The notes below the pieces were generated by a model. That model saw only the letters and a list, made by a program, of their open reading frames with translations. It had not been told where the DNA came from and ran no database searches. A stretch of 64,000 nucleotides of DNA from contig NZ_CP037968.1 in the NCBI RefSeq assembly GCF_019633745.1, positions 310,001 to 374,000 of the forward strand, read 5' to 3'. Numbering within the stretch: position 1 is the first letter of the stretch; every line of letters begins with the position of its first letter. The translations under genes were made by a program, and so were the position numbers. Below are positions 26,683-56,312 of this stretch, one piece after another. The DNA comes from Methanofollis formosanus. Its GTDB lineage: Archaea; Halobacteriota; Methanomicrobia; Methanomicrobiales; Methanofollaceae.

Positions 26683-27366
26683 TCAGATTCCCAGGGCCGG
26701 GATGAGGTCCCTGATCTCCTCGAGCACAAAGTCGGGCCTGCAGATGGGTTCCGGGCCTTCGCTGTGGTCGCCGTACAGCGCATAGGCCGCCTGCATCCCG
26801 AGGGCCCTGGCGGGTGCGACCTCGCGGCGGATGCTGTCGCCGACGACCATCGTCGTGGCCGGGGCGGCCGAGAGGGCGTTGAGGGCGCACCTGAACTGGG
26901 CGGGGTCGGGTTTTTTTCGGCCGGTGAGGTCAGGGGTGACGATATATGAGAAATAGTCCCTGAGCCCGGTCTGTTCCAGTCGCGTCACCGCCTGGAAGGA
27001 GTAGGCGTCGGTGACGACGGCCATGGTGATCCCGGCACCGGCGATGGCCGCCAGGGTCTCTTCCACACCGTCGAAGAGCCTGATGGAGGTGAGTTTTGTC
27101 CGCTCATAGACCCAGCACGAGCGGCCGTAGGCCCCTCTTCCGGCCCCCAGCCCGGCGAGATAGTCCCTGATATTTTGCAGGTCCTCGTATCCGACGCCGG
27201 GCCGCCTGAAGTGCTGGTAGAGTTCTTCGGCGTCGCCGGCCCCGAGGTCCTCGATGACCGCCCGACACGCCTCTCTCTTCGCACCGACGAAGTCCCAGAG
27301 GGTGTTGTCCATGTCGAAGAGCACGTGCCTTATCGTCTGATCCCCAGGGCCGAAAGTTTCCTGCAT
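26683..27366 (-). CDS. HAD-superfamily hydrolase (phosphoglycolate phosphatase-like)
   Basis: 227 residues from ATG 27366 (a GTG at 27387 or 27324 is also possible). HAD motif I is HVLFDMDNTLWDF with the nucleophile Asp; motif II is AVVTDAYS; the Lys motif is in DLTGRKKPDPAQF; motif IV is VVGDSIRREV. A helical cap follows motif I. It hydrolyses a small phosphoester. Its start overlaps the end of the PIN-nuclease gene, so it is the third gene of the CARF-like/PIN/HAD run; whether it acts on a nucleotide product is an open question. Confidence 0.85.
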   Translation of the reverse strand: MQETFGPGDQTIRHVLFDMDNTLWDFVGAKREACRAVIEDLGAGDAEELYQHFRRPGVGYEDLQNIRDYLAGLGAGRGAYGRSCWVYERTKLTSIRLFDGVEETLAAIAGAGITMAVVTDAYSFQAVTRLEQTGLRDYFSYIVTPDLTGRKKPDPAQFRCALNALSAAPATTMVVGDSIRREVAPARALGMQAAYALYGDHSEGPEPICRPDFVLEEIRDLIPALGI

Positions 27367-28340
27367 AGCTCGATGTCCCTCTCGCACTCGGTATGGCGGT
27401 CATCGCCGATGAAGGTTAGCCTGAAGGCATCGGGGTCGTCGCCTTTCCCCCCGAACTCGCCGAAGAGCACGGCCGATTCGATGGTGACGACCCCGAAGGA
27501 GAGGGCGAGGTGGGCGACGAGTTTGAAGAAGGTCTCGGGCGAGGCGTGATGGGGTTTGGGGTGGTAGGGGGCCCTGAAGAGAAAATATTCCACCCCCTCG
27601 GCGTCGCAGAGGTCGGCCATCGCCCCGTCCGCAGTGAGGAGGACCGGCAGGCCGAACCGCTTCTCCTCGAACCGGCGGAGTGCCTCGACGATCATCTGGT
27701 CGTTCTCGCGGGTGGCGTGCACCGCCTTCTCCCCCTCGTCGACGAGGATCGCCCGGTCGCGAAGAGCCTTGTACTCGGGCATCGCGAGGTACGCCGCCTT
27801 TCTCGACTTTTTTTTCCGCCGGTTCTCGAACTCGGCGATGTACCAACTCGCCTCGGGCGCACTCTCCCGCAGTTCGGCGATGAAGCGGGCCGAGTATTTG
27901 TGGTTGAGCACGTACTCGATCTCCTGGCGCACGATTCCGGTGAGGATCACCTCGTCGGGACGGAGGGCGCGGCTGGTGGTGAAGAAGCGGTGGTACATGA
28001 GGTTGGTGTCGAGCCCGAAGGAGATCTCCTTCTTCAGCCCTCGGTAGATCTTCGCCTTCTCCCTGAACTCCTCCATGTTCGCATAGGTGGTGACCCCGCT
28101 GGCAAGGAGACACTCCTCAAAGTCAGAGAAGAAGGGCATCTCCATCGCGTGCTCGCCGAACCTGAGCGAGGCGGCATAGAACTCGTCGGGGTTGGAGAGG
28201 ATGGAGATCCGGTAGCCGGTGCCCTCAGGCCGCGCCTCGAGAAGGCGGATCCCGTAGATGGGATATGAGATGGTGACCTCGCCGCCGAAATAATTGACAA
28301 GGGCCGGGATCTCCTGGCCTCGGATCAGCATCTCGCTCAT
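27330..28340 (-). CDS. PIN-domain protein, probable ribonuclease, paired with a CARF-like gene
   Basis: 336 residues. The N-terminal ~100 form an uncharacterised domain (FGGEVTISYPIYGIRLLEA...). From residue ~105 a PIN fold follows with a full acidic set: Asp111 in FGLDTNLMYHRF, Glu140 in GIVRQEIEYVL, Asp214 in TRENDQMIVEAL and Asp238 in LLTADGAMADL. A basic segment (ENRRKKKSRKAA, ~residues 172-183) could bind nucleic acid. Longer than toxin-type PIN proteins. It overlaps the CARF-like gene by ATGA and abuts the HAD gene. I infer a nuclease controlled by its upstream partner; this is not demonstrated by sequence alone. Confidence 0.75.
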   Translation of the reverse strand: MSEMLIRGQEIPALVNYFGGEVTISYPIYGIRLLEARPEGTGYRISILSNPDEFYAASLRFGEHAMEMPFFSDFEECLLASGVTTYANMEEFREKAKIYRGLKKEISFGLDTNLMYHRFFTTSRALRPDEVILTGIVRQEIEYVLNHKYSARFIAELRESAPEASWYIAEFENRRKKKSRKAAYLAMPEYKALRDRAILVDEGEKAVHATRENDQMIVEALRRFEEKRFGLPVLLTADGAMADLCDAEGVEYFLFRAPYHPKPHHASPETFFKLVAHLALSFGVVTIESAVLFGEFGGKGDDPDAFRLTFIGDDRHTECERDIELCRKLSALGIRR

Positions 28341-28828
28341 CCCGGCCCCCCCTCCTCGATGAGATCTCTGAGCGGCTGGATGTGGAGAGGGATGAGCAGG
28401 TACGGCCTGGCCGGGGGGTCGGGTATGGGGAGGCCGAGATAATAGATGTGGTCGACCCGCAGATCGGCGGCGGCGAGGTCCAGGCAGACCGAGACGATCG
28501 CCGCCTTCCGTCCGGGGGTGATGTCGAGGGCGGTCTCGAACCCTCTGGCGGCAAAGGCGCGGACCAGCCCGAGCACCCGCTCCCCGGCGGCGGCATAGTC
28601 ACCCTCTGCCACCCTGACGACCGAAATTCTGGGGGAAAAAGCGTAACGTTCAGAGATCAGCCTGATCCCCTCCAGCACCGTGCCGAGGGCGCTCTCCTCC
28701 CAGGCGACGAGATGCACCTCTGCCGGGCGGTAGCCGCGCTCGCGCAGCACCGCATGGTAGGTGTTGAGGAGCGCCCAGCCCGATCGCCCGGCAAGGGTGA
28801 TGTAGGCCTGTGCCCGCACCTGAGACAT
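28337..28828 (-). CDS. CARF-like Rossmann-fold protein, candidate cyclic-oligonucleotide sensor
   Basis: 163 residues from ATG 28828 (GGGGG just upstream). Strand-helix alternation fits a Rossmann fold. AYITLAGRSGWALLNTYHAVL forms the first turn, VHLVAWEESALGTVL follows, and the key segment is LDITPGRKAAIVSVCL (Asp102-Ile-Thr-Pro-Gly-Arg-Lys108). This matches the D-x-T-x-G-x-K loop of CARF domains, next IYYLGLP. No HEPN, nuclease or HTH part is attached. Stop and PIN start overlap in ATGA. The ABC ATPase gene ends 38 bp upstream, so a metabolic sensing role is the main alternative. Confidence 0.65.
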   Translation of the reverse strand: MSQVRAQAYITLAGRSGWALLNTYHAVLRERGYRPAEVHLVAWEESALGTVLEGIRLISERYAFSPRISVVRVAEGDYAAAGERVLGLVRAFAARGFETALDITPGRKAAIVSVCLDLAAADLRVDHIYYLGLPIPDPPARPYLLIPLHIQPLRDLIEEGGPG

Positions 28829-28866
28829 ACCCCCGGATGAGGTCCGGGGGCACAAAAGGTTGTCGT

Positions 28867-42288: not shown

Positions 42289-43029
42289 TCAGAGCAATGA
42301 GTCCAGGAGATCATCCTCAATATCTGAAAATTTGTTCTTCATGATGGTCCGGATTCTTTCGACGTACACCCTCTCGATATCATCTGCCGAGTGAATGAAA
42401 TCATTCATGACCTGCGGCCGGTCCACCAGAGAACCTGAATAATCTTTATCGGCATAATGGAAGACCCTGTCCTCGCCGAGAGGGAAGACAAATCTCCGGA
42501 TTGCAATCTTAGGGAGTCCGAACGAGGAGTGACCCGCGATATAATCGACCATCTCATGGATGGTCGCGGGGCTGTGCTCCTGCAAATAGGCGTAGAGGAT
42601 CTCAGACAACTTTTTTCTGACTGCAGGATCGTTCTGATAACGCAAATTCTTTGTTAAAAATCCACAGATCTCACTTCTCTCGTCGCACGCAGACTGATGG
42701 ATCTCATCGAGATCAGAGAAGATCACGCGATGATGACCGGTCCTGGGATCAGGTTCGATCGATTTCACGACGTCTCCCTTCATGGAGGTGATAAAATCTT
42801 TGAACGACCTGAACCCGAGTTGTTTCTCAGAAAAAGACGGTTGCAACCTGACGAGGAGAGGCTTCAACTGTGCCAGCAATATTGGTTCGTCGGAGGGACG
42901 GTTTTTCAGATATCGGATCAGCAGGTCCCTGCCCATCTTTCTGTTCATGTCCATGGCCAGGAACGAGGCCTTTTCGGCCTCACCGTCATCGGCCGGTTCA
43001 TCCTCAAACCCGATCAGCTCTTCAACCAT
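42289..43029 (-). pseudogene. C-terminal part of a LOTUS/OST-HTH protein split by a TnpB element
   Basis: Apparent 246-residue frame. It contains an OST-HTH/LOTUS-like domain: DLLIRYLKNRPSDEPILLAQ, LKPLLVRLQPSFSEKQLGFR, SFKDFIT, followed by a beta hairpin (TGHHRVIF), and a further helical region (residues ~115-246). Such domains bind RNA and usually follow a NYN nuclease domain. The frame continues upstream directly into the left end of the TnpB element, and a gene start reading MPVNRLDEKNVAIYLD lies just past the other end (44369 downward). The ATG at 43029 is thus probably accidental and the original gene is disrupted. Confidence 0.7.
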
Positions 43030-44325
43030 CTCCGCAAGGAGTCCCCGGTCTTCAGGCCGGGGAGGAATTGCGTTTCACACACATATCACTAAATAATATT
43101 GGTTGAAATATATATCTGTGCTCACCACAAAGACGATCATCCTCAAGATGGCCTGTCCTGATACCGATCTCCTTGACCGGACGGTACAGACCTACACTAA
43201 TGGGATGAACTACGTCTCTGCGGTCGTGTACAAACTCGGGAAACCCAGGGGTTCCGCCGCCCTCCAAAAGATCGTCTATCCTACTCTCCGGGAACATCTT
43301 GGTCTCAAGTCCCAGATGTCCTGCAACGTCGTCCGACAGGTCACGGGAACCTACCGGACACTCCAGGCGCAGGTCAAGACGAAAAAGACCGAATGGCAGC
43401 AGATCACGTACGCTCCCACCACAATGACCTTCTCCTTCGGACGGGACTTCTCTCTCGACAGAGACGAGATCGGGCTTACGACCCTCGAAGGCCGAAGAAA
43501 GTATCATTTCCTCCGGTACCCTTACATGGAGCAATATCTCGACGGATCGTGGAAGTTTGGAGCGTCAAAGTTGGTGAAACACCAGGACGGGACGTATTAC
43601 TTCCACCTCTGTTGCGAGAGGGAGTCCAGGACCCGCGAGGTCACGGAGTCTTCGACTTTCATGGGGTTGATGTGGGCCAGAACTTCCTTGCGGTTGCCTC
43701 GACGACCGACAAGAAATGTCGGTTCTTCTGTGGCGGGAAAGCCAAGGATCTCCGAAATATCTATTCTACCATGCGGAAACGGTTGCAGTCGAAGGGCACC
43801 CGGTCGGCAAAGAGGATGCTCAAGCACCTCTCCGGCCGGGAGAGACGGCTTATGACTGATATGAACCACCGTGTCTCGAAGGAGATTGTTGAGTTTGCCG
43901 TTCAGAACAATGTCGATGTGATTGGACTGGAGGATCTTTCCGGGATCAGGGACCGGACAGAAACCTCGAAGAAGCAGAGGTACACTCATCATTCCTGGGC
44001 GTTCTTTGAACTTCAGTCCTTTATCGAGTACAAAGCGGGGGAAAAAGGCATATCGACGGTCTATGTCGATCCGGCCTATACTTCTCAGACCTGTCCTCAA
44101 TGCAACCATATCAGCAAGAACAACAGGCACAGGAAGTCGTTTGTCTGCGAATGTTGCGGACACTCGCTTCATGCCGACCTGATCGGTGCTCGGAACATCG
44201 AGTCCAGAGCACGCACCTACAGGTATACCCTGGAGGTGCAGGGGTGCAGTCAACCACCCAAACGAGAACTATCGACAGGATAGAGTCTCAAGCTCCGTCC
44301 TTCAGGGCGGGGTAGTTGACAGTCC
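43027..44325 (+). mobile_element. IS1341-type (IS200/IS605 family) tnpB-only element
   Basis: Left end: hairpin CCCCGG-TCTTCAGG-CCGGGG at 43043-43062. Right end: CCGTCCTTCAGGGCGGGGTA at ~44295-44314, the signature of the 3' end of TnpB guide (omega/reRNA) scaffolds, then GTTGAC. TTCAAC at 43021-43026 may be the target-adjacent motif. No tnpA is present and no target duplication is expected for this family. Exact ends are uncertain by several bases. Confidence 0.75.
43118..44283 (+). pseudogene. tnpB: TnpB RNA-guided nuclease gene with one frameshift
   Basis: Two plus-strand frames together make a full TnpB of ~388 residues. Catalytic RuvC residues are intact: Asp in GVDVGQNFLAV, Glu in VIGLEDLSGI, Asp in HSLHADLIGARNI. 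The zinc ribbon CPQCNH...CECCGH is intact too. The frame changes at the G-run 43663-43666: four Gs are present, and a fifth would restore ATG-GGG-GTT-GAT. It is inactive as it stands unless the ribosome slips or the assembly missed a base. Confidence 0.85.
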
Positions 44326-44796: not shown

Positions 44797-44973
44797 GGAT
44801 CTGCTTTTTGTGTGGAGCATATCTGCACCAGGGAGATAGGAATCATGCGAGCAGACCATTTCAAAGGCATTAATCCTTTTTTTCGTGGAACCAGCATGCA
44901 ATGAGGTGCTGAGAGGTGAAGACAAAAGTAATACGAGGTGATGCGATCCTTTTTGTGTGGAACCCCCTGCGGC
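44797..44973. CRISPR. Fossil CRISPR repeats (three degenerate units)
   Basis: Three stretches resemble the active repeat: ATCTGCTTTTTGTGTGGAGC at 44799, TTAATCCTTTTTTTCGTGGA at 44871 and GCGATCCTTTTTGTGTGGAA at 44943. Starts are ~71-72 bp apart, exactly one repeat-spacer period. Each keeps the T-run, the GTGGAA/GTGGAG block and a CTGCA-like end. They would be the oldest end of the locus. Confidence 0.6.
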
Positions 44974-45092
44974 TCATCCCCACGGTGAGGGCGAGAGCAA
45001 GCCAGAACTCGCCCCCTGTGGGGAAATCTTACCCGAAGGGCAAGGAGATAGATTGCATATCCATCTCTGTTAGCAGACCAGATATAATTTTT

Positions 45093-45340
45093 GGGCTCTG
45101 TAGAGTCAGGCATGGACCTGAGGCTCAAGCACATGGGATGAAAATTGTTCAGAGAATCCCTATCAATCGCGACAGCGCACCAGGAGAACATTGCTCAAGT
45201 GCCGCCTCCGATCCTCACCGTGGGGGTGCGGGGGGCGGCGAGCCCGCCGGTGGAGGAGTGCGTTGAGCATTTCTGGAAGGAAGCACGTCGGTCCGAGGGG
45301 ATGTTCGCCCCAGGAGAGTTCTGGGATATGCTCATGGAAT
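45093..45340. repeat. Composite element copy inside the CRISPR region
   Basis: Begins GGCTCTGTAGAGTCAGGCAT, continues AAGCACATGGGATGAAAATT, then a GC-rich inverted core (CACCGTGGGGGTGCGGGGGG ~45217) and ends AGTTCTGGGATATGCTCATG. The end is fused directly to a half CRISPR repeat (CATGGAATAATTCTGCAAT, to ~45351). 44974-45092 has no gene. Confidence 0.6.
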
Positions 45341-45389
45341 AATTCTGCAATATTTACCGCTTCGCAAATACCCGAAGTCGATCATGAGA

Positions 45390-45648
45390 GTAACAATCCT
45401 TTTTTTCATGGAATAATTCTGCAACACATGGCAAACCGTAAAGAAATATATCCGCATCCTTGTGTAGCAATCCTTTTTTTCATGGAACAAGTCTGCAACT
45501 ATCATGCAAAGGAGCGTGATACACTAAGCATAGGCAAAGTAGCAATCCTTTTTTTCATGGAACTATTCTGCAGCATCAAGCAGAATAAATTATTGAAGGC
45601 TGGAGAATGGATGTAGCAATCCTTTTTTTCATGGAACAAGTCTGCAAC
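45390..45648 (-). CRISPR. CRISPR array 1 (4 repeats, 3 spacers)
   Basis: 36-nt repeats at 45390-45425, 45464-45499, 45539-45574 and 45613-45648; spacers of 38, 39 and 38 nt. On the minus strand the repeat starts GTTGCAGA and ends GGATTGCTAC. The repeats differ from each other (AATAATTC, AACAAGTC, AACTATTC variants), a sign of age. It shares the repeat of the larger array, so the same Cas6 should process both. A half repeat lies further left at ~45333-45351. Confidence 0.93.
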
Positions 45649-45695
45649 CATATCCAAATGCTCCGAATAAAAATTGGATGTGTTCTGGGGGCCGT

Positions 45696-45929
45696 TCAAT
45701 CGATGACCGTGGGTTGATCTCTCCGCCGGCTGAGCCGATCTTCGTCGATTTCAAGAATACGATCTATCTTCGCCAGGTTCACGAGGAAATGGTGTCCGTC
45801 GGGGAGTTCTAACTCCACAAACCCAAAACATCTCACCACGGTGCCACGGAGAACCCTAATCTCTCCATCGTCAGAATACGTCACCTTAACAGGCTTACCA
45901 ACCTGGTTTTCCAGCAAATCTGTTGCCAT
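45696..45929 (-). CDS. Small Sm-like protein between the CRISPR arrays
   Basis: 77 residues from ATG 45929 with a strong ribosome site (GGAGGT, 7 nt). After a short helix (MATDLLENQ) come five predicted strands, VGKPVKVTYSDDGEIRVLRG, TVVRCFGFVELELPDG and HHFLVNLAKIDRILEID, which is the strand pattern of an Sm/LSm barrel. I cannot confirm Sm motifs by alignment, so the family is an inference. It is transcribed toward array 1, on the cas strand, and lies between two arrays with the same repeat. An RNA-binding role would fit that place. Confidence 0.65.
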   Translation of the reverse strand: MATDLLENQVGKPVKVTYSDDGEIRVLRGTVVRCFGFVELELPDGHHFLVNLAKIDRILEIDEDRLSRRRDQPTVID

Positions 45930-46140
45930 AATCTTTACCTCCAAATCTTATCTGACATCTCTGTCCTGAGAGTGAGAGTCAGGGTATTAAGCCTGTTTAA
46001 CTCACTCTATACTGCCTCGTAGAGGCAGTGAAAGGATATTCTTGCGTGCCGCCAGGATTGATTCTCTCAGTTCTGTGTCCTGAACCCCGTGCCAAAGGAC
46101 AGGACAACCCGGCACCTTTTCGACCAGCCCCCTTTGAGAA
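45930..46140. other. Promoter region of the Sm-like gene and distal end of array 2
   Basis: Contains inverted repeats (CTGCCTCGTAGAGGCAG at 46013-46029; TGTCCT...AGGACA at ~46078-46102). These may be the terminator of the array-2 transcript or part of the Sm-like gene promoter. No other gene is seen. Confidence 0.45.
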
Positions 46141-47076
46141 GTAGCAATCCTTTTTTCATGGAACAAGTCTGCAACTCTGTCGAGAAGACGCTGAAATCTC
46201 GAACTACTACATACCGTAGCAATCCTTTTTTTTCATGGAACAAGTCTGCAACTTTTTTCGGACTTTAGGACGTGAATACAATGGCTAGTAGCAATCCTTT
46301 TTTTCGTGGAACAAGTCTGCAACACGGTACCGGAATCGCACAACGAATTTGCCGCGTCCCTCATTGGATATGGTAGCAATCCTTTTTTTCGTGGAACAAG
46401 TCTGCAACTCGCACGACTCCGGAAACTCTTAGAGAAGACTGAAGCGGAGTAGCAATCCTTTTTTTCGTGGAACAAGTCTGCAACAAATCTTGATGCATTA
46501 TGACGCAAGAGAACCTTTTTGAAGTAGCAATCCTTTTTTTCGTGGAACAAGTCTGCAAATATCTATCTCTCTGAAAAAAGTGATATCATGTCGCAGTAGC
46601 AATCCTTTTTTTCGTGGAACAAGTCTGCAACCCCGTCTTGAAGGTGAATCGCTCGCAGAACTTAGGAAACTGTAGCAATCCTTTTTTTCATGGAACAATT
46701 CTGCAACAAGTATTATGAACTCGCTTTCGATGTGGGCGCAGGGTAGCAATCCTTTTTTTCATGGAACAATTCTGCAACCACTCATAGCACCAGACCAACT
46801 CGGCATCTTCCGGGAACGTAGCAATCCTTTTTTTCATGGAACAATTCTGCAACTATGTCAGCAGAGGCATGAGAACAGCACTCTTTCAGAGTAGCAATCC
46901 TTTTTTTCATGGAACAATTCTGCAACGTATCTCGTTGACATCTATGAACAGTTAGATGAACAGTAGCAATCCTTTTTTTCATGGAACAATTCTGCAACAG
47001 TGCGGATGGAGGAAAGGACGAAAGGTCGCCGACCACCTCGGTAGCAATCCTTTTTTTCATGGAACAATTCTGCAAC
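46141..47076 (-). CRISPR. CRISPR array 2 (13 repeats, 12 spacers)
   Basis: Repeats start at 46141, 46216, 46288, 46373, 46449, 46524, 46596, 46672, 46743, 46818, 46891, 46963 and 47041; spacers are 35-49 nt. Repeat variants form three blocks. The two leftmost have CATGGAACAAGTC and irregular T-runs (35 and 37 nt). The next five have CGTGGAACAAGTC. The six at the right have CATGGAACAATTC and are identical. Homogeneous repeats at the right end put the leader there, with transcription on the minus strand. Open frames here (recurring LFHEKKDCY) are artefacts of the repeat. Confidence 0.97.
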
Positions 47077-47204
47077 AGTATCATATTCTCTCTGAATCCC
47101 CAAATACCTTTCGAAACCCCTCCTTCTCCCCCGCGTATATAAAGCGGGTGAGGATATTGCGGCCCTCGCCTTTCTATACTCACCCGCACCGAGATCAGAG
47201 ACTA
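47077..47204 (-). promoter_or_regulatory. CRISPR leader with TATA box
   Basis: The 128 bp between array 2 and cas2 carry no gene. CTTTATATACG (47134-47144, minus strand) is a good TATA box and would start the pre-crRNA near 47110, about 35 nt before the first repeat. A purine-rich stretch (GGGGGAGAAGGAGGGG) follows the box. Confidence 0.7.
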
Positions 47205-47516
47205 TCATCCTATGATCCTGTAACGTCTCTTCCTGAACCTCTCCTCATCAAAGGGTTTCCCGATCACCACTTTGCGCGAGAGACAACGCTCGCAGAGGGG
47301 GAGGACAAGGACACTATCGGTATCAGTACGTACTTCCCCCTCACGCGGTCTGGTGACCTCGTTCATCGCCTCTGCAATCTGATCAAACCCCGACGAGGAC
47401 ACCTCCCCGAAGAAGACACTCCTCTGGAACCTGACAAGCCCGAAATCCTTGCAAGTCTCGACGACCCTCCTCCTGATACGGGCGTCGGTGAGGTCGTAGA
47501 TCACCCACGCAAACAT
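47205..47516 (-). CDS. cas2: CRISPR-associated protein Cas2
   Basis: 103 residues from ATG 47516, which overlaps the cas1 stop in TGATG; an in-frame GTG lies at 47525. MFAWVIYDLTDARIRRRVVE has the ferredoxin-fold first strand with the conserved Asp of Cas2, then CKDFGLVRFQRSVFFGE. With Cas1 it forms the spacer-integration complex. It is adjacent to the leader, where integration takes place. Confidence 0.93.
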   Translation of the reverse strand: MFAWVIYDLTDARIRRRVVETCKDFGLVRFQRSVFFGEVSSSGFDQIAEAMNEVTRPREGEVRTDTDSVLVLPLCERCLSRKVVIGKPFDEERFRKRRYRIIG

Positions 47517-48514
47517 CAACGCCACCGGTAACGGAAGGGGTGGTAGGGGCGCCCTTCATTCAGGTACCTCACCACATCCCGCATATTCTCAGTGATCGCA
47601 CGGGAGAAGGAAGAAACCCTCCCGCCAAGATCCCGGTCGGCAGTCAGACGGTCAATGACCGTCGCCGCCACCCTGCGGCGAGCATCAGGTGTCAGGTACC
47701 CACGCCCATCAAGATCCGCCGCCCTGATCCGTCTCCTGACCGCCAGCGTGATCACCGCCTGATCGACGACCGGTTGTCTGAACTGCTCGATCACATCGTA
47801 CACAAACGACCGGCGCCCCGCACGATCAGCGTGAAGATACCCAAGAAAAGGATCAAGCCCTGCGATCAGACACGCCCGCTCCACCTCATTGTACAGGATC
47901 CCGTAGCCATAGTTGAGAGAGGCATTGAAGACATCACCGGCAGGCCGGTGCCGGCGGATGCCATGGTAGACCTCTGGACCGATCACCAGACGGAGCGCCG
48001 CGAAGTACCGCCGGGACGCCTCCGCCTCGACCACCCGCATCACCTGTGCCGATTGAGGCAACGACCCCTGACCTGGCATCTTCTCCGCGACTCTCTCGAT
48101 CTTCTTCCCCTCTTCCTTCAACCCCTGATCATTCCGGTTCCTCCCAAGAACCCTGACCAACCCTCCCATATGAGCGATCTTTGCCCTGAGGATCCCCGCG
48201 CAGAACACATACCCCTCGCACCCCATCGACCCAAGGACCTGATTTTTTCTGGTGAGACCTGTCCCGCAAGGCGTGCACGAGACAAACCTGCCCACCGGCA
48301 TCCCGTCCTGCCCAAGCACTGTAATATCGATCCCATGCTCCGCCGCAAGAGCAGCGACCCCCGAGGTAACCGTCGCCGCCCCGGCTATCAGAACCTGCTC
48401 GACCTCGTCAACCGCAAACTCTTCTGTCTCGCCGTCACACTCCACCACGATCCGGTTTGAACACCTCCGCACCACCGTCCCATACCCATTGAGGACAAGA
48501 TGCATCTTTTTCAT
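47516..48514 (-). CDS. cas1: CRISPR-associated integrase Cas1
   Basis: 332 residues from ATG 48514 (an ATG at 48505 with AGGAGG better spaced is also possible). N-terminal beta domain (HLVLNGYGTVVRRCSNRIVV). Catalytic residues are visible in the helical domain: Glu in VVEAEASRRYFAAL, His in FLGYLHADRAGRRSFVYDVI and Asp in the following EQFRQPVVDQAV segment. Complete and probably active. Confidence 0.95.
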   Translation of the reverse strand: MKKMHLVLNGYGTVVRRCSNRIVVECDGETEEFAVDEVEQVLIAGAATVTSGVAALAAEHGIDITVLGQDGMPVGRFVSCTPCGTGLTRKNQVLGSMGCEGYVFCAGILRAKIAHMGGLVRVLGRNRNDQGLKEEGKKIERVAEKMPGQGSLPQSAQVMRVVEAEASRRYFAALRLVIGPEVYHGIRRHRPAGDVFNASLNYGYGILYNEVERACLIAGLDPFLGYLHADRAGRRSFVYDVIEQFRQPVVDQAVITLAVRRRIRAADLDGRGYLTPDARRRVAATVIDRLTADRDLGGRVSSFSRAITENMRDVVRYLNEGRPYHPFRYRWR

Positions 48515-48593
48515 CCCCTCCTCTCCCCCAGGAGACCGCCATAGAACCATCCGTGCACTTTATCCATCCATCTCACCAGAATAATCACCATCA

Positions 48594-49337
48594 ATGAAAA
48601 CCGCAGTCATCGCACCGGTCGGCATGAGCCCTCCGGCAATCAGCACACTCATCGACGGAATAGGAGTCCCAGTCACCGACTGCATCCTCCTCGCCACCAA
48701 AAACCCTGCAGTCCAGGCCTCAGTCGGCCTCCTCACCACCGGCCTGCACCGCCGCTTCCCCTGGATGAGGATCCACCACGAAGTCCTCCCCTTCGAGGAC
48801 ATCGGAACAGAAGAGGAGACCTTCGCCTTCATCACGCAAGCCGCTCGCATCATCAGACAGGAGCAGGAGACCTTCGGATGCGACCACGTCTACCTCTCGA
48901 TCTCAGGCGGACGCAAGAACATGTGCGTCTCCCTCTCCCTCCTCGCCCCCCTTCTCCAGACCGACGGCGTCTTCCATGTCATCAACACCGAGATCAACGT
49001 GGTCAACACCCGCCTCGAACACCTCCGTAAGGATATCGAAGCGTTCGCCACCGCTGACGACGACGAGCGTAACCGCCTCTACGAGGAAAAATCCACCGAA
49101 TACGACCACCTCCTCTTCCCGCCGCGTGACACCTATGAGGTGATCAGGATCCCGACCCTCCCCTACCCCCCCGACCACCTCCACCACCTTATTCTCGGCC
49201 TCACCACCGGTGAAGCACTCACCTCAGACGAACGCGACCTCCTCGCCAGACACGGCATCCTTGAACCAGGCCGCTCGTCAACGGTCCTCACTCCATATGG
49301 GGAACGGTTCCTTGCCGCCTTCCTTGGGCGCCCCTGA
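48594..49337 (+). CDS. NE0113-like CARF protein with C-terminal winged helix
   Basis: 247 residues. The N-terminus (AVIAPVGMSPPAISTLIDG) and the ligand loop YLSISGGRKNMCVSLSLL (Ser104-Gly-Gly-Arg-Lys108) fit CARF proteins of the NE0113 type. The last ~50 residues (LTSDERDLLARHGILEPGRS, STVLTPYGERFL) look like a winged helix. No HEPN or PD-(D/E)XK part is seen. It may be a cOA-responsive regulator or a ring nuclease. It is the only plus-strand gene in the locus, divergent from cas1 (80 bp), and its 3' end overlaps cas6 tail to tail by 60 bp. Confidence 0.8.
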   Translation: MKTAVIAPVGMSPPAISTLIDGIGVPVTDCILLATKNPAVQASVGLLTTGLHRRFPWMRIHHEVLPFEDIGTEEETFAFITQAARIIRQEQETFGCDHVYLSISGGRKNMCVSLSLLAPLLQTDGVFHVINTEINVVNTRLEHLRKDIEAFATADDDERNRLYEEKSTEYDHLLFPPRDTYEVIRIPTLPYPPDHLHHLILGLTTGEALTSDERDLLARHGILEPGRSSTVLTPYGERFLAAFLGRP

Positions 49338-50003
49338 CCCTTTTTTCAGTGGCGGGATCGGCTTCACCGCTCCAAACCCCCGAGAGACCCCCTTCCCCAG
49401 ACCGAAATATTCCGGAATGGCAAAATTTACCCTGAACTCCCCGACAAACCCAGTCATCCCGATCCCCTTGTAGGTGACCGGCACCTGCTCCAGGTGCGTG
49501 GCCGCTCTCAACCTCTGGTCGACGACACACCCAAGGCCCTTTGCCATCGAGAGCACATTGCCGACAAGGATACGGTTGATCAGGTCCTTCTTCTCAGGCC
49601 AGGTCTCCGCCTTCTGGTACCGCTCATAGTTTTTCTCATTCAGCGCCAACCATGGCGTCACAAACCGGTAATGCCACATCCCACGAGTGGGATGGAGGCC
49701 GACCTCCTGCTCATAGGCCACCCGCCTCGTCACCTGATAGGTCTCGTTGCCAAGACTGAGTTCGGCGATCGACCCCCCGATCTCGCGCAACGTCTCCGCC
49801 CCCTCCTCGATCCCGAGGACCGCCGGCGTCCCCTCGACCACCCGATACTGCACGCGAGGATACGTATACAACAGAGCCGGGGCATGATGATGGAGGATCG
49901 GGCGGTCAGGATACATCCCCGCCACATACCCTCTCAGGTGAGTGGCATCTTTTGTCACCGGCCGATCAGTCTCCAGGACCAGATAACAGGTCTTCAGTTT
50001 CAT
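49278..50003 (-). CDS. cas6: CRISPR RNA endonuclease Cas6
   Basis: 241 residues of the RAMP superfamily. The C-terminal Gly-rich loop IPEYFGLGKGVSRGFGAVKP is diagnostic, and GMTGFVGEFRVNF is the strand before it. His residues near the N-terminal half (ILHHHAPALLY, GMWHYRF) are candidates for catalysis. It cuts pre-crRNA in the repeats of both arrays. The stop lies inside the CARF-winged-helix gene of the opposite strand. Confidence 0.9.
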   Translation of the reverse strand: MKLKTCYLVLETDRPVTKDATHLRGYVAGMYPDRPILHHHAPALLYTYPRVQYRVVEGTPAVLGIEEGAETLREIGGSIAELSLGNETYQVTRRVAYEQEVGLHPTRGMWHYRFVTPWLALNEKNYERYQKAETWPEKKDLINRILVGNVLSMAKGLGCVVDQRLRAATHLEQVPVTYKGIGMTGFVGEFRVNFAIPEYFGLGKGVSRGFGAVKPIPPLKKGSGAPKEGGKEPFPIWSEDR

Positions 50004-50005
50004 AG

Positions 50006-50515
50006 TTACTCCAGTGCATCTGCTCCCACCTGCTCGCGAAGGACACGCGTATATGCCGGCGAGAGCCTCTGCTCACGCAGATGTTCAGTCCCCGAGATCC
50101 CGATCCCGTCCACGCCCCGCCTGGCCTCGACAAGAGAGAGAGGGACCTGGTGGAGAGCGGCAACGATCACCGCCGCCGCGGTCATCGACTTGGTCCCTGA
50201 GGTATAATCGATCGCCTTTCTCCCGGCAACCCCCTTCACCGCTGCGTCCATCACCTCGATACAGGCGGCGAGATCGTCGACATCGGGCAGGACCACAGAG
50301 TTGAAAGGAGGGAGCACCTCACCGGTCATCTCCTGATACTCCTCCGCAATCCCCCTCACCGTCGCCGCGCTCTGATCAGACCCAAAGAAGACCACCTCCC
50401 CTGGTCGGTGACAAGCGACGGAATATGCCAGGCCATGAGCAATGGAAGCCCTCCCGGTTCTGGGGTCAGGCCTGCCAGTCCCGACCGTCATGAAGAGCGT
50501 CACCACCGCACCCAC
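50006..50515 (-). CDS. Standalone CARF-domain protein of the type III-A operon
   Basis: 169 residues with GTG start (50515), overlapping csm5; ATG 50491 is an alternative. FMTVGTGRPDPRTGRASIAH binds the first loop, VVFFGSDQSAATVRGI the second, and AIDYTSGTKSMTAAAVIVAA carries the ligand signature Asp-Tyr-Thr-Ser-Gly-Thr-Lys. It resembles the N-terminal sensory half of Csm6/TIGR02710 proteins without the nuclease half. Options are a ring nuclease that destroys cOA, or a sensor subunit acting on another protein. Confidence 0.82.
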   Translation of the reverse strand: MGAVVTLFMTVGTGRPDPRTGRASIAHGLAYSVACHRPGEVVFFGSDQSAATVRGIAEEYQEMTGEVLPPFNSVVLPDVDDLAACIEVMDAAVKGVAGRKAIDYTSGTKSMTAAAVIVAALHQVPLSLVEARRGVDGIGISGTEHLREQRLSPAYTRVLREQVGADALE

Positions 50516-51681
50516 CCCATCGGAGAATGATTGAGGGTAAACTCAAGGGTCTTTGGATATGGCAACTCAAGCCTCCCCCCAGAAAGAGCACGCCTGTACT
50601 TCCCGAGACGCTGCTCCGTGACAATCTCCAGAGCAAGGTCGGGATCCCTCTCCTCAACGAGGTTGAAGAGCGTCTGATAGATCGTGCCGACGCCAAACCC
50701 GATCCTGAACATGTCAGTCTTCTGGTGCTCAGCCTCGATCATCTCAAGCCCCTTCCTGCAATCTGGATCATTCCCGCGTTCTACGAGGGCCCGCTCCTTC
50801 GTGAGCGCGGCATCCACAAACCGCCGCATCGCCTTCTTGATATGAGCAACGACCTTCTCCTCTGCCGCCGCCAGGTCGTCAAGGTCATGGGCCGTGATCC
50901 CGAGCACCCCGAGCCGGTCTGAAAGCCGGTCGAGATCCCGACGACGCAACGCCCCCTGGATCGCCGGCGAAAGCGTAATCTCACACTCATACTCCCCGAT
51001 CACCGTTTCAGCATGAGTGAGAAACGGCTTTCTGGTAAAACCCCTGGTGCCAAGAGACATCGTCTCGATGCCGTCCAGCCGCAGGATCTGTTTGAGCCCC
51101 TTAGAGGCCTGGACTGCATGGGCGTCAGAGACCTGGAGAAACTTGAGAAGATCGTATTTGGGGTCTCGATCAGGTCTCCCATTCCTCCCGCACTTCGTCG
51201 AGAAGATCTGGTTCTCATACCCCTTCCCGATCCGCTCTTTCATCCTCCTGTCGCCAGTGGAGAGATCACGCCTGATGGCCTCGATGAATTCCGGGTCGTT
51301 CCGTGCCACATCCCAGAGCAGAGCCGTCCTGATCGCACCCTTGATACTCGAACCAGGGAGATAGGGTTCGTCAAAACCGGTCTTAATACACTCCCTGACC
51401 TCGCGGATCCCATGGACCGCCACCCCATACCGGTTCCTGAGCCCATACCGAGCGATCCCCTCACGTTCTCCAGGAAGGAGAAAACGGTCGAGATTGAACC
51501 GCTCGCCGTTCAACTCGATCTCCATGAAAAATGCATCTTTCCGCGCCTCAGGGAGGGCCCGGTACATCTGCTCAGACGAGACCCGGTTCACCGTGCCGCC
51601 CACAGCAAAGAACTCGCTGGGGCCGTATCTCTGGCCGGTCCCGATGTGGACCGGCGTCTTCGTCTTCAGTATGAGTTTCAC
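50500..51681 (-). CDS. csm5: Type III-A RAMP protein Csm5
   Basis: 393 residues. MKLILKTKTPVHIGTGQRYG is the classical RAMP start and EPYLPGSSIKGAIRTALLWD the Gly-rich loop with the Csm5/Cmr6-type helix. Csm5 caps the 3' side of the crRNA in the Csm complex. The start overlaps the csm4 stop (ATGA) and the end overlaps the CARF gene. Confidence 0.93.
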   Translation of the reverse strand: MKLILKTKTPVHIGTGQRYGPSEFFAVGGTVNRVSSEQMYRALPEARKDAFFMEIELNGERFNLDRFLLPGEREGIARYGLRNRYGVAVHGIREVRECIKTGFDEPYLPGSSIKGAIRTALLWDVARNDPEFIEAIRRDLSTGDRRMKERIGKGYENQIFSTKCGRNGRPDRDPKYDLLKFLQVSDAHAVQASKGLKQILRLDGIETMSLGTRGFTRKPFLTHAETVIGEYECEITLSPAIQGALRRRDLDRLSDRLGVLGITAHDLDDLAAAEEKVVAHIKKAMRRFVDAALTKERALVERGNDPDCRKGLEMIEAEHQKTDMFRIGFGVGTIYQTLFNLVEERDPDLALEIVTEQRLGKYRRALSGGRLELPYPKTLEFTLNHSPMGWVRW

Positions 51682-52601
51682 TCAGACCACCTGAACGGCA
51701 CCGGGAACGCCATCCCATATTCGACCACCGGTACGTCGTCGCGCACCGCCTCGATAGATCCGTAGAACTCGTCACCGAGATCCTTGAAGACAGACCCCTC
51801 CTTCAGAGTGAGCACCGACTTCTTCACCTTCCCGTCTCCTGACCGTCCCCTCACCGGCACGATCTCATAATACACCTCACCGCCAAACGCGCTGATGTCG
51901 CCGGGAATAAACCTGGAGAGCGTCAGGAGATGGTCCTCCCTCCCGGCAGGCAGGAAGTCCACCTCACCGAAAGAGAGATCAAACGCCCCCATCCCCGCCG
52001 AAATTCTGCCGCCGATCCCTCGGTCGGCAAGGAACCTGAGTGCTGCACCCACCTCTGACTCAAATGCCCTCTTCTTGATGTCAAGAAGGAAATAGATCCC
52101 GGCATTCTCGAAATATCCCCCCTCAGAAGAGAAGAACGCCTCCGAAGAGGAACCCATCCGGTTTATCCGGTTATGAGGACGCTGATACTCATGGATCATG
52201 AAATCCTCATCATCTCCCTCCCAGACCAGCCCGCACCGTTCATTCAGGGAGTCCATCCTGCCGATAACGTCGAGGGCCGAGCACCGCCCGGTTGCCCAGG
52301 CCTTGAAGAGGGATGCATCGATGTAGTGCATACGCCTATAGTCTTTGACCCTGTCCATGACCTCCTCAGGGACCAGGGGAAGAGGGAGGATCGGAGGAGG
52401 CAGGAAATGCCGCGTCCGATCGCCCCTGACATATGGGAACCCTGACGTGAGCAGGAATGGCGGTTCGGTCTCGAAAGCCTCGATCATCTCCCCCACCGGC
52501 CCGCCCAGTTCTGCCATCGCCGAGCAGATCGCACCAAAGATGGTATGCGATGGGATTTCAGCCGGGAAGCCAGACCGTGGCGTCAGATACACCGCACGCA
52601 T
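51678..52601 (-). CDS. csm4: Type III-A RAMP protein Csm4
   Basis: 307 residues from ATG 52601; the longer frame to 52721 lies inside csm3. Begins MRAVYLTPRSGFPAEIPSHT-IFGAICSAM, a Csm4 start. The C-terminal half has GIGGRISAGMGAFDLSFGEV, a RAMP Gly-rich loop. Csm4 binds the 5' handle of crRNA and anchors Cas10. Confidence 0.92.
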   Translation of the reverse strand: MRAVYLTPRSGFPAEIPSHTIFGAICSAMAELGGPVGEMIEAFETEPPFLLTSGFPYVRGDRTRHFLPPPILPLPLVPEEVMDRVKDYRRMHYIDASLFKAWATGRCSALDVIGRMDSLNERCGLVWEGDDEDFMIHEYQRPHNRINRMGSSSEAFFSSEGGYFENAGIYFLLDIKKRAFESEVGAALRFLADRGIGGRISAGMGAFDLSFGEVDFLPAGREDHLLTLSRFIPGDISAFGGEVYYEIVPVRGRSGDGKVKKSVLTLKEGSVFKDLGDEFYGSIEAVRDDVPVVEYGMAFPVPFRWSE

Positions 52602-52614
52602 ATCGCCCGCTCCC

Positions 52615-53370
52615 TCATGTCCTCTTCTCTCTGAGAGCCCTGAGGATGGCGCGAGGAGTCGTCGCCTCAACAAACCGGTCGTCGGGCGTCCAGTCGTCCC
52701 CTGACCGATAGGACCCGGCATTCTTCCATCCTACAGAGATCTTCTCGAACGCCACCTTCCCATATCCACGCGACCCCGCCTTGCCAAGATAGGTGTCCTC
52801 GACGAGGGAGAGCGCCTCAAAAAGATATGCAAGCCGTGCCTCGTCCTCCTCGCTATAGACCGAGAAGACCATCTCAAAATCAAAGGCCGACCCGGCAGGA
52901 ACCCGCTCGATGAACCTGGGTTTTGCCACCGAGTTGATCCGGTTCAGATAATTTTCACCCTTGATCTCAGTCCCATGAACGATCCCCTCTCTCTCTTCCC
53001 ACTGTGTCTGAGTCTCTCTGTCTGGGAAGGCGTCCCTGATGATCAGCCTCGTCGGCCCGGACTCTCTGCCGTCTCGCGGATTGTCCTTTGCCCCCCGGCC
53101 AAAGACGATACAGAGGTCGCAGTCGTCTTCATCACAGGTATGTGGGCTCCCGTCTCTCGTGAGCCACTGGTCGCTGTACTTCAACTCAAGGGAGGACCGC
53201 ATCTTCCCCTTCAGTGAGGACCCAGGGACAATCGGGACATTCCTGATCCGGTCGAGGATCACCGGCTGATCAGCCCCGCCGATCCCGAGGCTGTCACTAC
53301 TCCCTCCGATGTGCAGGCCGGTCAGACACGAAATTTTTCCAGAGATCTGATAATTTTTCAGGAACTGCAT
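52615..53370 (-). CDS. csm3: Type III-A backbone RAMP nuclease Csm3
   Basis: 251 residues. GLHIGGSSDSLGIGGADQPV places Asp34 at the target-RNA cleavage position. VPIVPGSSLKGKMRSSLE is the conserved loop. A CDEDDCDLC cluster (residues ~79-87) fits the zinc site of Csm3. Expected to cut target RNA at 6-nt intervals. It starts one base after the csm2 frame ends. Confidence 0.95.
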   Translation of the reverse strand: MQFLKNYQISGKISCLTGLHIGGSSDSLGIGGADQPVILDRIRNVPIVPGSSLKGKMRSSLELKYSDQWLTRDGSPHTCDEDDCDLCIVFGRGAKDNPRDGRESGPTRLIIRDAFPDRETQTQWEEREGIVHGTEIKGENYLNRINSVAKPRFIERVPAGSAFDFEMVFSVYSEEDEARLAYLFEALSLVEDTYLGKAGSRGYGKVAFEKISVGWKNAGSYRSGDDWTPDDRFVEATTPRAILRALREKRT

Positions 53371-53880
53371 TCACGCTCTCTCCTTGTGGTAGTATTTATG
53401 ATAGGCAACAATCGATTCAAGCAGGTAGACAAAGGTCTTGTAGTTGGCTTTTTTCTGTACGTCATCCCCGACCGGCACCTTCTGCATCGCAACAGTGACC
53501 AGGGTATAGAAGTCCTGGGGGATCAGATCGCGGCCCTTTGCATAGGCAAGCAACGGCCTGATCATGTAAAATTCGGCCTCAACGTCTGGCCACGCCCTGT
53601 CGGTAAGAGTATTCTCGATCTTTTTGACGACGCCAAATAACCGCCTGAGCTGACTTGGTTTGAGTGAGCCGAAGTCCTTTGCGGCTCTCTCAGCAATACC
53701 GTCCTCTCTGGCGATCTCGTCGACGGTGATCTCGTTCAGGGAGGTGACCCCCTGAATTTTTTTGATATATTCTTTCTCTCCTCGTGGGGCGTCTCTTCTC
53801 CCAGGACCTCCATAGGAAGAGCGGCCGCCTGTACGTTCTGTCGAATTATTCCTTCCCTGATTGTTGTTGTAATATCCCAT
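53371..53880 (-). CDS. csm2: Type III-A small subunit Csm2
   Basis: 169 residues from ATG 53880. A disordered Asn/Gly/Arg-rich head (YYNNNQGRNNSTERTGGRSS) precedes the helical Csm2 core (SLKPSQLRRLFGVVKKIENT ... FYMIRPLLAYAKGRDL ... FVYLLESIVAYHKYYHKE). The arginine-rich head is longer than usual and could bind RNA. The gene fits tightly between cas10 and csm3. Confidence 0.9.
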   Translation of the reverse strand: MGYYNNNQGRNNSTERTGGRSSYGGPGRRDAPRGEKEYIKKIQGVTSLNEITVDEIAREDGIAERAAKDFGSLKPSQLRRLFGVVKKIENTLTDRAWPDVEAEFYMIRPLLAYAKGRDLIPQDFYTLVTVAMQKVPVGDDVQKKANYKTFVYLLESIVAYHKYYHKERA

Positions 53881-53882
53881 CT

Positions 53883-56312
53883 TTACACACCCCTTGTCCG
53901 CAGAATTGTCCAGAGGAGAGGGAGCCGTGCCCATCCGAAGATCGGGACGATCGCTCTCTCCACCTCATCTCGCGTACGTGGTTTTCCATTTGTTCTGACG
54001 TTTCCCGCCACCTGATACTTCAGGTACGGCAGGTATCGCTTCCGGCGTATCCGTTCAAGACACTGTTTGTCCAGGGGCCTCTCACCAAGATCTGCAAAGG
54101 TGTCCTCCCAGAGGTCGTTGAGGGTATGGACAAATGATCGTGAGACGATCTGCTCATCCACATAGGTCTCAAGTGCCAGTCCAGAGTCCATCAACGTCGA
54201 GAACCCTTTCTCATAGCCGTTGTCCTCCCACCTGAGCGATTCCCCAAAGATTACGACCCGGTTCCGTCCGTCTTTCTTTGCCCGCTGCAGAGATCTCTCT
54301 GCCTCTTCGACTGCGATCGACACCGGCAACTGCGGCGGGACGACAGCGATCCCGGCTGAGAGGGTGATCGCCGGGTTGGCACAGACATAACAGGTAAATT
54401 CGTCATGAAAACGCTGCGCAAACCTGAGGATATGGTCCCATGGGCCAAGAACAAGCAGGTCGTCGCCGCCCGAGTAGATCACGTAGAGACTCGGGACAAA
54501 GTGTTTCTTGCATTCAGGGCAGGGTTCGGCCTCAGAGTCGATCCAGGTATAGAAGACCGCAGGATCTCCTGGACGATCGCTGTCCGGTACTTCGATCTTC
54601 TGCGCGTGCTCCCTGCATTCCGGGCAGAGTCTCCGGTATACCCCGAACTCCTGGCAGAGCGTGGTGAGATATCCGGCAAAGAAGTACTGGAACCGGGTGC
54701 TGAGGGTGTAGATCCGTGAGATGCTCCGGTCATCTTTGGGAAGGCCAGCCGCCATGATCCGACCAAGCCTGTCCACATCGGCCTTGAACACCCCGATCTT
54801 TCTGTCGCCGGTGGCAAGATAGGCAAGGTCACTGAGAGTCAGGATCCGGGTGCCGCTGAGGGGGACGGTGTTGCCAAGGTACATAAATCCTGTCTCTTCC
54901 ACCCCGTCGATCAGGAACTCTGTGGAGTTGATCGTGATCACCGCCTCGCCAGGGCTGCAGTCCGGCCCCTCGGTGAGGTCGTAGGTGGTGGAGAGGCCGA
55001 ATTCATCGAATGCAAACCTGAGCCCTGTCCCTCTGAGAAGATATCGAGCCCTTGCGATGGCTGCTCCAAGAGCTTCGTGCGTCCTGCACTCGGCACAGGT
55101 GCCGTTAGGTGTCAAGGGCAGACCGCAGACCGGACAGAGGTCTGCGATCTCGTACACTCTGCCATGTGCCCTGAAGAGAGGATCACAGTCGATGAACTTC
55201 TGGAACTTCTTTCTGCCGACAATGGCGTTGAGATGATCGAGAAGTGACGGAAAATCTTTCATCTCCTCGCGCGAGCAGGGCAGAGATCCCACCACAAGCG
55301 AGAGGCTTCCCCCATTCTTCTGCAGGAGCGTCGTATTGATCTTCCTGGTGATCTGGCCGACTGCGTCATGCACTCTGCTGGTGTTTGGGAGGAGGAGCAG
55401 GAAGTTCCCGCCGGTGTTCCAGAGGATGTTGGCCTCGGTGGCATCAGCGGCCTCCACCATCTCCCTGGCCGTAGCGTCTGCAAGGAGGTTGAGCCAGAAT
55501 GACCGACCTCTGAGGCGTTTTGCCATCCCTTTCCGTGCGTCCTGAGGAGTGGCCACGCCAAAGATGAACGACTGGATCCCTGAGAGTCGACCCTGTACAA
55601 GGAGAAATGGAGAGGCCTTCTCCCTGAAATGGAGGCAGACTGCCAGGGCGGCGGTCGTCTTTGCATGGTCGTAAAGCGAAATGTCAGGGACGTTTACATA
55701 GGTCGCTGAAGGGATGAGGCTGGTGTACTTCCTGAGGAGGGCAAGGGCCGTCCCAAAGGTCGGCGGGTGACCTGCGGTCTCAAACTCTCTGACAAAGTGA
55801 TCCCAGAGATTTCTGTAGGGATTCCCCTCCTTGTATGATGTGGCATGGCTCTCTCTCGTCGGGAATGTGTCTTCCCGTTCAAGGGTGAGAGGTCTCAGGA
55901 GATGGTTCCACTGATACAGACTCTCCGAATGGTCGTGCATCCCGCTGAGTTGGACAGAGGGGAATACACTGATGAGAGGGTCATGTCTCGGGTCTCCTTT
56001 CCCTTCGCGGGGTTTGCGGTCCACTGCCGACGAGAGGTGATCTGCGTCCCGGATGATACGGGAGGAGGCGTGATACCGGGCCCTCTCCGGGAGATGGTGG
56101 TGAAGGACGAGATCTTCCACGACCGGGTCGTTCACATACGCTCTGACAAAGTCTGCACTCCATTTTGCATGGGCACCGTTTCTGCCAAAGTCCTCCTTTG
56201 AAAGCACGTTATATTGGCTGTCAGGCCGCACCCCGGCACGGTAGGAAAATTTCCCGATGTCGTGCAGGAGAGCTGCAAGAGCGATTTGGTCAACGTTGCA
56301 CTCTGTATTCAT
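53883..56312 (-). CDS. cas10: Cas10/Csm1, cyclic-oligoadenylate synthase and HD nuclease
   Basis: 809 residues. HD motif ALLHDIGKF (His17-Asp18) with a later NGAHAKWSADF helix forms the ssDNA nuclease. A zinc ribbon CPVCGLPLTPNGTCAEC lies near residue 390. The palm 2 active site YSGGDDLLVL has Gly615-Gly-Asp-Asp618, intact, so ATP should be turned into cyclic oligoadenylates when target RNA is bound. C-terminal helical D4 domain. It is the first gene of the minus-strand csm operon. Confidence 0.96.
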   Translation of the reverse strand: MNTECNVDQIALAALLHDIGKFSYRAGVRPDSQYNVLSKEDFGRNGAHAKWSADFVRAYVNDPVVEDLVLHHHLPERARYHASSRIIRDADHLSSAVDRKPREGKGDPRHDPLISVFPSVQLSGMHDHSESLYQWNHLLRPLTLEREDTFPTRESHATSYKEGNPYRNLWDHFVREFETAGHPPTFGTALALLRKYTSLIPSATYVNVPDISLYDHAKTTAALAVCLHFREKASPFLLVQGRLSGIQSFIFGVATPQDARKGMAKRLRGRSFWLNLLADATAREMVEAADATEANILWNTGGNFLLLLPNTSRVHDAVGQITRKINTTLLQKNGGSLSLVVGSLPCSREEMKDFPSLLDHLNAIVGRKKFQKFIDCDPLFRAHGRVYEIADLCPVCGLPLTPNGTCAECRTHEALGAAIARARYLLRGTGLRFAFDEFGLSTTYDLTEGPDCSPGEAVITINSTEFLIDGVEETGFMYLGNTVPLSGTRILTLSDLAYLATGDRKIGVFKADVDRLGRIMAAGLPKDDRSISRIYTLSTRFQYFFAGYLTTLCQEFGVYRRLCPECREHAQKIEVPDSDRPGDPAVFYTWIDSEAEPCPECKKHFVPSLYVIYSGGDDLLVLGPWDHILRFAQRFHDEFTCYVCANPAITLSAGIAVVPPQLPVSIAVEEAERSLQRAKKDGRNRVVIFGESLRWEDNGYEKGFSTLMDSGLALETYVDEQIVSRSFVHTLNDLWEDTFADLGERPLDKQCLERIRRKRYLPYLKYQVAGNVRTNGKPRTRDEVERAIVPIFGWARLPLLWTILRTRGV

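Follow-up and report, generated by a model that had tools for sequence, protein, structure and literature searches.

The action of CARF effectors is usually put down to cyclic oligoadenylate made by Cas10, and a run of three overlapping genes in the methanogen Methanofollis formosanus raises the question of how far that explanation reaches. The run lies in a 64,000-nucleotide stretch of contig NZ_CP037968.1 (the window, to which all positions refer). A first-pass annotation of the sequence read it as a CARF-like sensor and a PIN nuclease that together form a split effector, which could answer cyclic oligoadenylate from a Cas10 at 54-56 kb, with a HAD phosphatase possibly removing a phosphate product. 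Is the pair a genuine effector, does it belong to the type III CRISPR system nearby, and if not, what might it answer to?

A sensor and a nuclease in two genes

The three minus-strand genes, and the ATGA overlap between the first two, lie where the first-pass annotation had placed them (Table 1), with one amendment. As first drawn, the HAD gene spanned 26683-27387 with a GTG start at 27387; its overlap with the PIN gene stands, while the start is moved, because in 33 of 33 adjacent HAD genes at homologous loci an ATG start gives an overlap with the PIN gene of exactly 37 nt. The window gene is thus better drawn from the corresponding ATG. Directly ahead of the CARF start codon sits a perfect 8-bp inverted repeat (CCCCCGGA...TCCGGGGG, 28829-28850), which is not kept in the near relatives at loci L087 and L096.

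Table 1. Features of the gene run and of the type III-A locus, in window coordinates
Feature	Position	Strand	Basis
CARF-domain protein, 163 aa, sensor half	28337-28828	minus	profile matches
CARF signature D102-I-T-P-G-R-K108, putative ligand loop	28505-28525	minus	kept in all branches
ATGA stop/start overlap, CARF into PIN	28337-28340	minus	
336-aa PIN nuclease protein: alpha/beta domain at the N terminus (~residues 1-105), then PIN domain	27330-28340	minus	AF2 model, Foldseek, PDLC01973 match
PIN domain, residues 110-251, with D111, E140, D214, D238	27588-28013	minus	Pfam PIN_4 and invariant acids
37-nt overlap of the PIN gene with the HAD gene as drawn from the conserved ATG at 27366	27330-27366	minus	
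HAD-family phosphatase, core gene sharing the operon (start corrected)	26683-27366	minus	Pfam Hydrolase, 4.6e-23
Cas10/Csm1 of the type III-A locus, 26 kb from the pair	53883-56312	minus	Cas10 palm2 (1.3e-31), Csm1_B, HD
CARF5-type protein, 247 aa	48594-49337	plus	
CARF-only protein, 169 aa	50006-50515	minus	aligns to CARF1-HEPN models over their CARF part; HEPN part lacking

While the upstream protein on its own matches no Pfam or NCBIfam family, members of its family do. The PADLOC profile CARF_m1 (PDLC01971) matches it at E=2.6e-40 and recovers 26 of 26 aligned homologues (best 9e-64), but this model was possibly built from close relatives, and independent profiles weigh more. Pfam Csa3_N matches 16 of the 26 homologues (best 6.4e-5), and other PADLOC CARF families match homologues with E down to 1e-8. 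Searched against the PDB, a CARF profile drawn from all branches returns 3qyf (1.4e-7), the CARF protein of entry 7z55 (6.6e-7), residues 5-134 of SiRe_0806 (9jxw; 3.9e-6) and the ring nuclease SSO2081 (~1e-5); matches to TAL effectors in the same search were discarded as repeat artefacts. The fold assignment rests on these profiles rather than on a model, because the single-sequence structure model, built without an alignment, is poor (pLDDT 59): its strands and helices alternate, and its best structural match, the CARF ring nuclease Sis0811, reaches E=0.0095 only. The D-x-T-x-G-x-K type loop claimed at the outset lies within LDITPGRKAAIV (residues 101-112) and is kept in every branch as D-I/V-T-x-G-R/K-K; the CRISPR-linked branch, for instance, reads DITPGRKYMSA, and haloarchaea have DVTPGRKFMSA. 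In an alignment of 55 rows covering all branches, T104, G106, K108, Y130 and P147 are nearly invariant. Judged by its profiles, the protein is a CARF domain, and its initial CARF-like label can be made firmer.

For the 336-residue protein, an AF2 model (38-row alignment) is confident, with pLDDT 92.6 and pTM 0.91. Its best Foldseek matches are five chains of SiRe_0806 from Sulfolobus islandicus, in apo form and with cA4 (PDB 9JXW/9JXX; E=2.3e-6 over 355 columns), followed by the PIN domains of MJ1533 and SMG6; Pfam PIN_4 also matches, at E=0.0038. The four acids picked out by the first-pass annotation (D111, E140, D214 and D238) show no variation among the 55 sequences, haloarchaeal and CRISPR-linked members included. 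Sequence and structure model together establish that this protein is a PIN nuclease. The ~105 residues ahead of the PIN domain form an alpha/beta domain, which in fused proteins seemingly sits between CARF and PIN. Across the alignments, conservation of the CARF residues and the PIN acids is far beyond chance.

The two genes behave as one unit. A CARF query finds 58 of 199 genomes sampled from the window's order, Methanomicrobiales, and a PIN query finds the identical 58. Nearly all homologous loci show a CARF/PIN overlap of 1-32 nt, and such overlapping pairs recur in Methanofollis, Methanoculleus, relatives of Methanolinea and Methanospirillum, Methanolobus and Methanosalsum (Methanosarcinaceae), many Thermococcus, one Asgard archaeon and, in more divergent form, haloarchaea. 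The distance matrices of the two proteins correlate at r=0.91 in a mirror-tree comparison, where the best of 500 permutations reaches 0.24. None of the loci examined has a fused CARF-PIN gene, each having two genes; the fused form exists elsewhere, as the PADLOC model PDLC01973 and SiRe_0806. On that model, 465 positions long, the window proteins fall in series (CARF at 2-146, PIN protein at 227-442), and those of locus L188 cover it almost fully (1-154 and 172-456). From the recurrent overlap, the mirror-tree signal and the collinearity with single-chain CARF-PIN proteins, we judge the pair to be a real split CARF/PIN effector whose halves are predicted to form a complex, and in this the initial proposal is borne out.

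The pair is also an old resident of its lineage. In the tree, a main clade of 39 rows (SH-aLRT 98) stands apart from the haloarchaeal and CRISPR-linked rows. Within the initial 120 genomes of the order sample, the two families with Methanofollis and Methanoculleus relatives contribute 37 examined genomes, each of which carries the pair (12 from the window's genus and 25 from the second family), and between close species without Cas10 both genes evolve at dN/dS of ~0.1-0.3. Searches of phages, plasmids and viral contigs were empty for the window branch, on which ground we rejected mobile-element cargo as an explanation for it. Plasmids do carry members of the haloarchaeal branch.

The proposed link to Cas10

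One reading makes the pair a dedicated type III CRISPR effector, activated here by cyclic oligoadenylate from the window's own Cas10. The setting lends itself to this: positions 44865-56312 hold a complete type III-A locus made up of a repeat array of ~17 units, cas1, cas6, csm5-csm2 and a csm1/cas10 whose GGDD motif stands within YSGGDDLLVLG. That Cas10 may be a source of cyclic oligoadenylate in this genome, and the structure closest to the PIN protein, SiRe_0806, was solved with cA4. However, the locus already has two further CARF proteins of its own, a CARF5-type and a CARF-only protein (Table 1). Just upstream of the CRISPR array lie an OST-HTH/LOTUS-domain protein (42289-43029, minus strand) and a TnpB-like reading frame (43393-44283, plus strand).

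A dedicated effector would be expected to keep company with Cas10, and the window branch does so only at background. Scored by PF22335, Cas10 occurs in 19 of the 199 genomes of the order: in 5 of 58 with the pair versus 14 of 141 without it (odds ratio 0.86, p=1.0). It is found in 3 of the 37 genomes of the two families in which the pair is universal, and in a phylum sample 11 of 45 main-clade genomes have it, as do 58 of the other 348 (p=0.21). The sister branch presents the opposite picture, being embedded in type III operons. Its CARF gene lies ~5-6 kb from Cas10 in five genomes (G338, G420, G424, G469 and G475), with the PIN partner next in line in the four that have contig sequence beyond it; six sister-branch loci in all have Cas10 ~5-6 kb away. 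The pair of G301 faces a type III operon, and the type III operon at L191 includes RAMP, Csm6 and Cas1 genes. Both branches coexist in G420 (loci L192 and L218), which has a CRISPR-embedded pair as well as a chromosomal main-clade pair.

Where pair and Cas10 do share a genome they are sometimes fairly near each other (26 kb here, ~16 kb in G029, ~38 kb in G309 and ~6 kb in Methanosalsum), a residual hint of a link for which we claim no significance. The survey of co-occurrence that the first-pass annotation had called for thus gives a divided answer, with association present in the sister branch and co-occurrence at background in the window's. Homologues of the window branch are mostly in genomes without Cas10, an outcome that the same annotation had listed as counting against its own reading. 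An answer to Cas10-made cyclic oligoadenylate is unsupported as a general role, and that the pair serves here as a dedicated type III effector is unlikely.

Companions of the pair

The third gene of the run is widespread in its own right. The HAD residues D25, D27, T126, K159 and D184, which make up the DxD, Thr/Ser, Lys and GD motifs, are invariant among 39 sequences. Of 120 genomes of the order, 114 have an orthologue, most of them lacking the pair, and where the pair is absent the gene has no fixed neighbors. On these two grounds a dedicated product phosphatase was rejected, and the proposed removal of a phosphate product is unsupported here, the occurrence of the HAD gene being independent of the pair; the protein may have a part in clearing a messenger or product. 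The strict 37-nt overlap argues for translational coupling, and we take the HAD protein to be a core phosphatase and an operon partner of the pair rather than a dedicated effector.

Other neighbors vary by lineage. ABC and FecCD genes lie near the pair in the window's genus only and not in other families, a genus-level linkage on which we rejected an importer operon; conservation with the importer genes, which the first-pass annotation had named as evidence against a CRISPR role, was therefore not what we found. A CARF-winged-helix regulator of the HFX_2341/DUF6293 type (CARF3) lies within a few kb of the pair at six loci (L066, L069, L072, L141, L215 and L218). In haloarchaea, the plasmid-borne pairs (L242-L251) recur in BREX/DISARM-type defense islands: that of Halobaculum (L242) adjoins BREX genes, that of Haloferax (L243) a BREX ATP-binding protein with csa3 upstream, and that of Haloplanus (L246) a DrmE gene. 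Further neighbors on these plasmids are AAA-VWA-HEAT operons with an ADP-ribosylglycohydrolase, UvrD/PD-(D/E)XK pairs and a Piwi protein. The haloarchaeal records label the PIN half "hypothetical protein"; for the CARF half the label is either that or "CRISPR-associated ring nuclease".

A second reading takes the pair as a Cas10-independent responder to RNA damage or stress, in which CARF would sense RNA ends or fragments and PIN would take part in RNA turnover, together with a metallo-beta-lactamase (MBL) protein and HAD in some lineages. The pair is indeed kept in Cas10-free genomes, and an RNase J-like MBL protein of 470-540 residues (Lactamase_B_2 and RMMBL) lies next to or near the CARF/PIN/HAD genes in several genera (L066, L068-L070, L073, L141, L215 and the f9 loci). 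There is also precedent in RtcR, whose CARF domain responds to damaged tRNA (PMC7790460) and binds repair enzymes (PMC9650030). Yet none of the ten Methanofollis/Methanoculleus-family genomes searched, the window's included, has the MBL gene, which was rejected as a general partner on that account. The independence of the HAD gene also tells against this reading, and relatives of the pair sit in defense islands, not in RNA-repair operons; we regard it as quite unlikely. A VapBC-like toxin-antitoxin system, in which a small antitoxin of CARF fold would restrain a PIN toxin, would fit a small upstream gene overlapping a PIN gene, but is highly improbable given that the upstream protein is a CARF with a conserved ligand loop instead of a DNA-binding antitoxin and matches no antitoxin family, that fused CARF-PIN proteins exist, and that the window branch, with its long vertical conservation and no phage or plasmid records, is unlike mobile VapBC.

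A probable messenger-gated RNase and its possible signals

The reading that we prefer, at a probability of roughly 60%, is a two-gene messenger-gated RNase module that in this lineage works partly or wholly independently of Cas10. The domains, the intact active-site and loop residues, the pairing, the coevolution, the collinearity and the retention of the pair without Cas10 are observations, from which the following scheme may be drawn. The CARF subunit would recognize an oligonucleotide-type signal, either cyclic oligoadenylate or a related RNA-derived ligand, while bound to PIN much as the two domains are in single-chain CARF-PIN proteins. Once loaded with ligand, it would switch on metal-dependent cleavage, presumably of RNA, at the four-acid PIN site, and the probable outcome would be a cell slowed during infection or RNA damage through growth arrest or RNA turnover. 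In this lineage the pair is fixed in the chromosome, with the core HAD phosphatase translated after it. Cyclic oligoadenylate may trigger the module in hosts with a type III system; most hosts would need some other signal to maintain selection.

What could supply such a signal? The minimal CRISPR polymerase mCpol gave nothing above the cut-off in 16 genomes and was rejected as the messenger source. In the same 16 genomes SMODS gave one match just above the cut-off and others below it, all in open frames of 460-616 residues and uninformative. By analogy with RtcR, RNA ends would be the main alternative class of ligand. A wider proposal, which we put forward tentatively and at somewhat under even odds, is that the pair represents an archaeal form of CARF/PIN signaling without Cas10, vertically inherited and near-universal in several methanogen families, which would use an undescribed messenger and synthase, and whose relatives would have been plugged separately into type III operons and BREX/DISARM-type islands.

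Several known systems provide points of reference for the messenger-gated module. SiRe_0806 (PDB 9JXW; 9JXX with cA4) likewise has CARF followed by PIN, but in one chain, whereas the window pair consists of two genes from a branch without a Cas10 link and has a HAD gene next to it. In PADLOC, the CARF_m1 group comprises CARF-only models (PDLC01971/01972), a form listed by itself, and the CARF_PIN model PDLC01973; the window CARF is a member by profile, and its neighbor aligns to the fused model over the PIN part. The type III ancillary effectors Csx1/Csm6 and Can/Card also have a CARF sensor driving a nuclease, though theirs is HEPN or PD-(D/E)XK, while the window's is PIN, encoded separately and usually without Cas10. 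Chp effectors (PMC12715507) link CARF and a HAD phosphatase in one membrane protein; the HAD of the window is a separate, soluble-type core gene that is also present without CARF, and Chp is a functional parallel rather than a relative shown here.

Two PIN-linked CARF families were listed in 2014 (PMC4012209), and PIN was named among effectors activated by cyclic oligoadenylate in 2025 (PMC12669027). Within the literature accessible to us, which does not extend to the 2020 classification of the CARF superfamily, the predominance of the two-gene form among archaea appears to be new, as do the fixation of the pair in Cas10-free methanogen families, the coupling to HAD and the haloarchaeal defense-island branch. 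Purifying selection on the pair in families mostly without Cas10 implies that another enzyme makes the messenger or that the CARF subunit senses something else. With two small soluble proteins, the question of what Cas10-free CARF proteins respond to becomes directly testable, and the split form allows sensor and nuclease to be purified and titrated separately.
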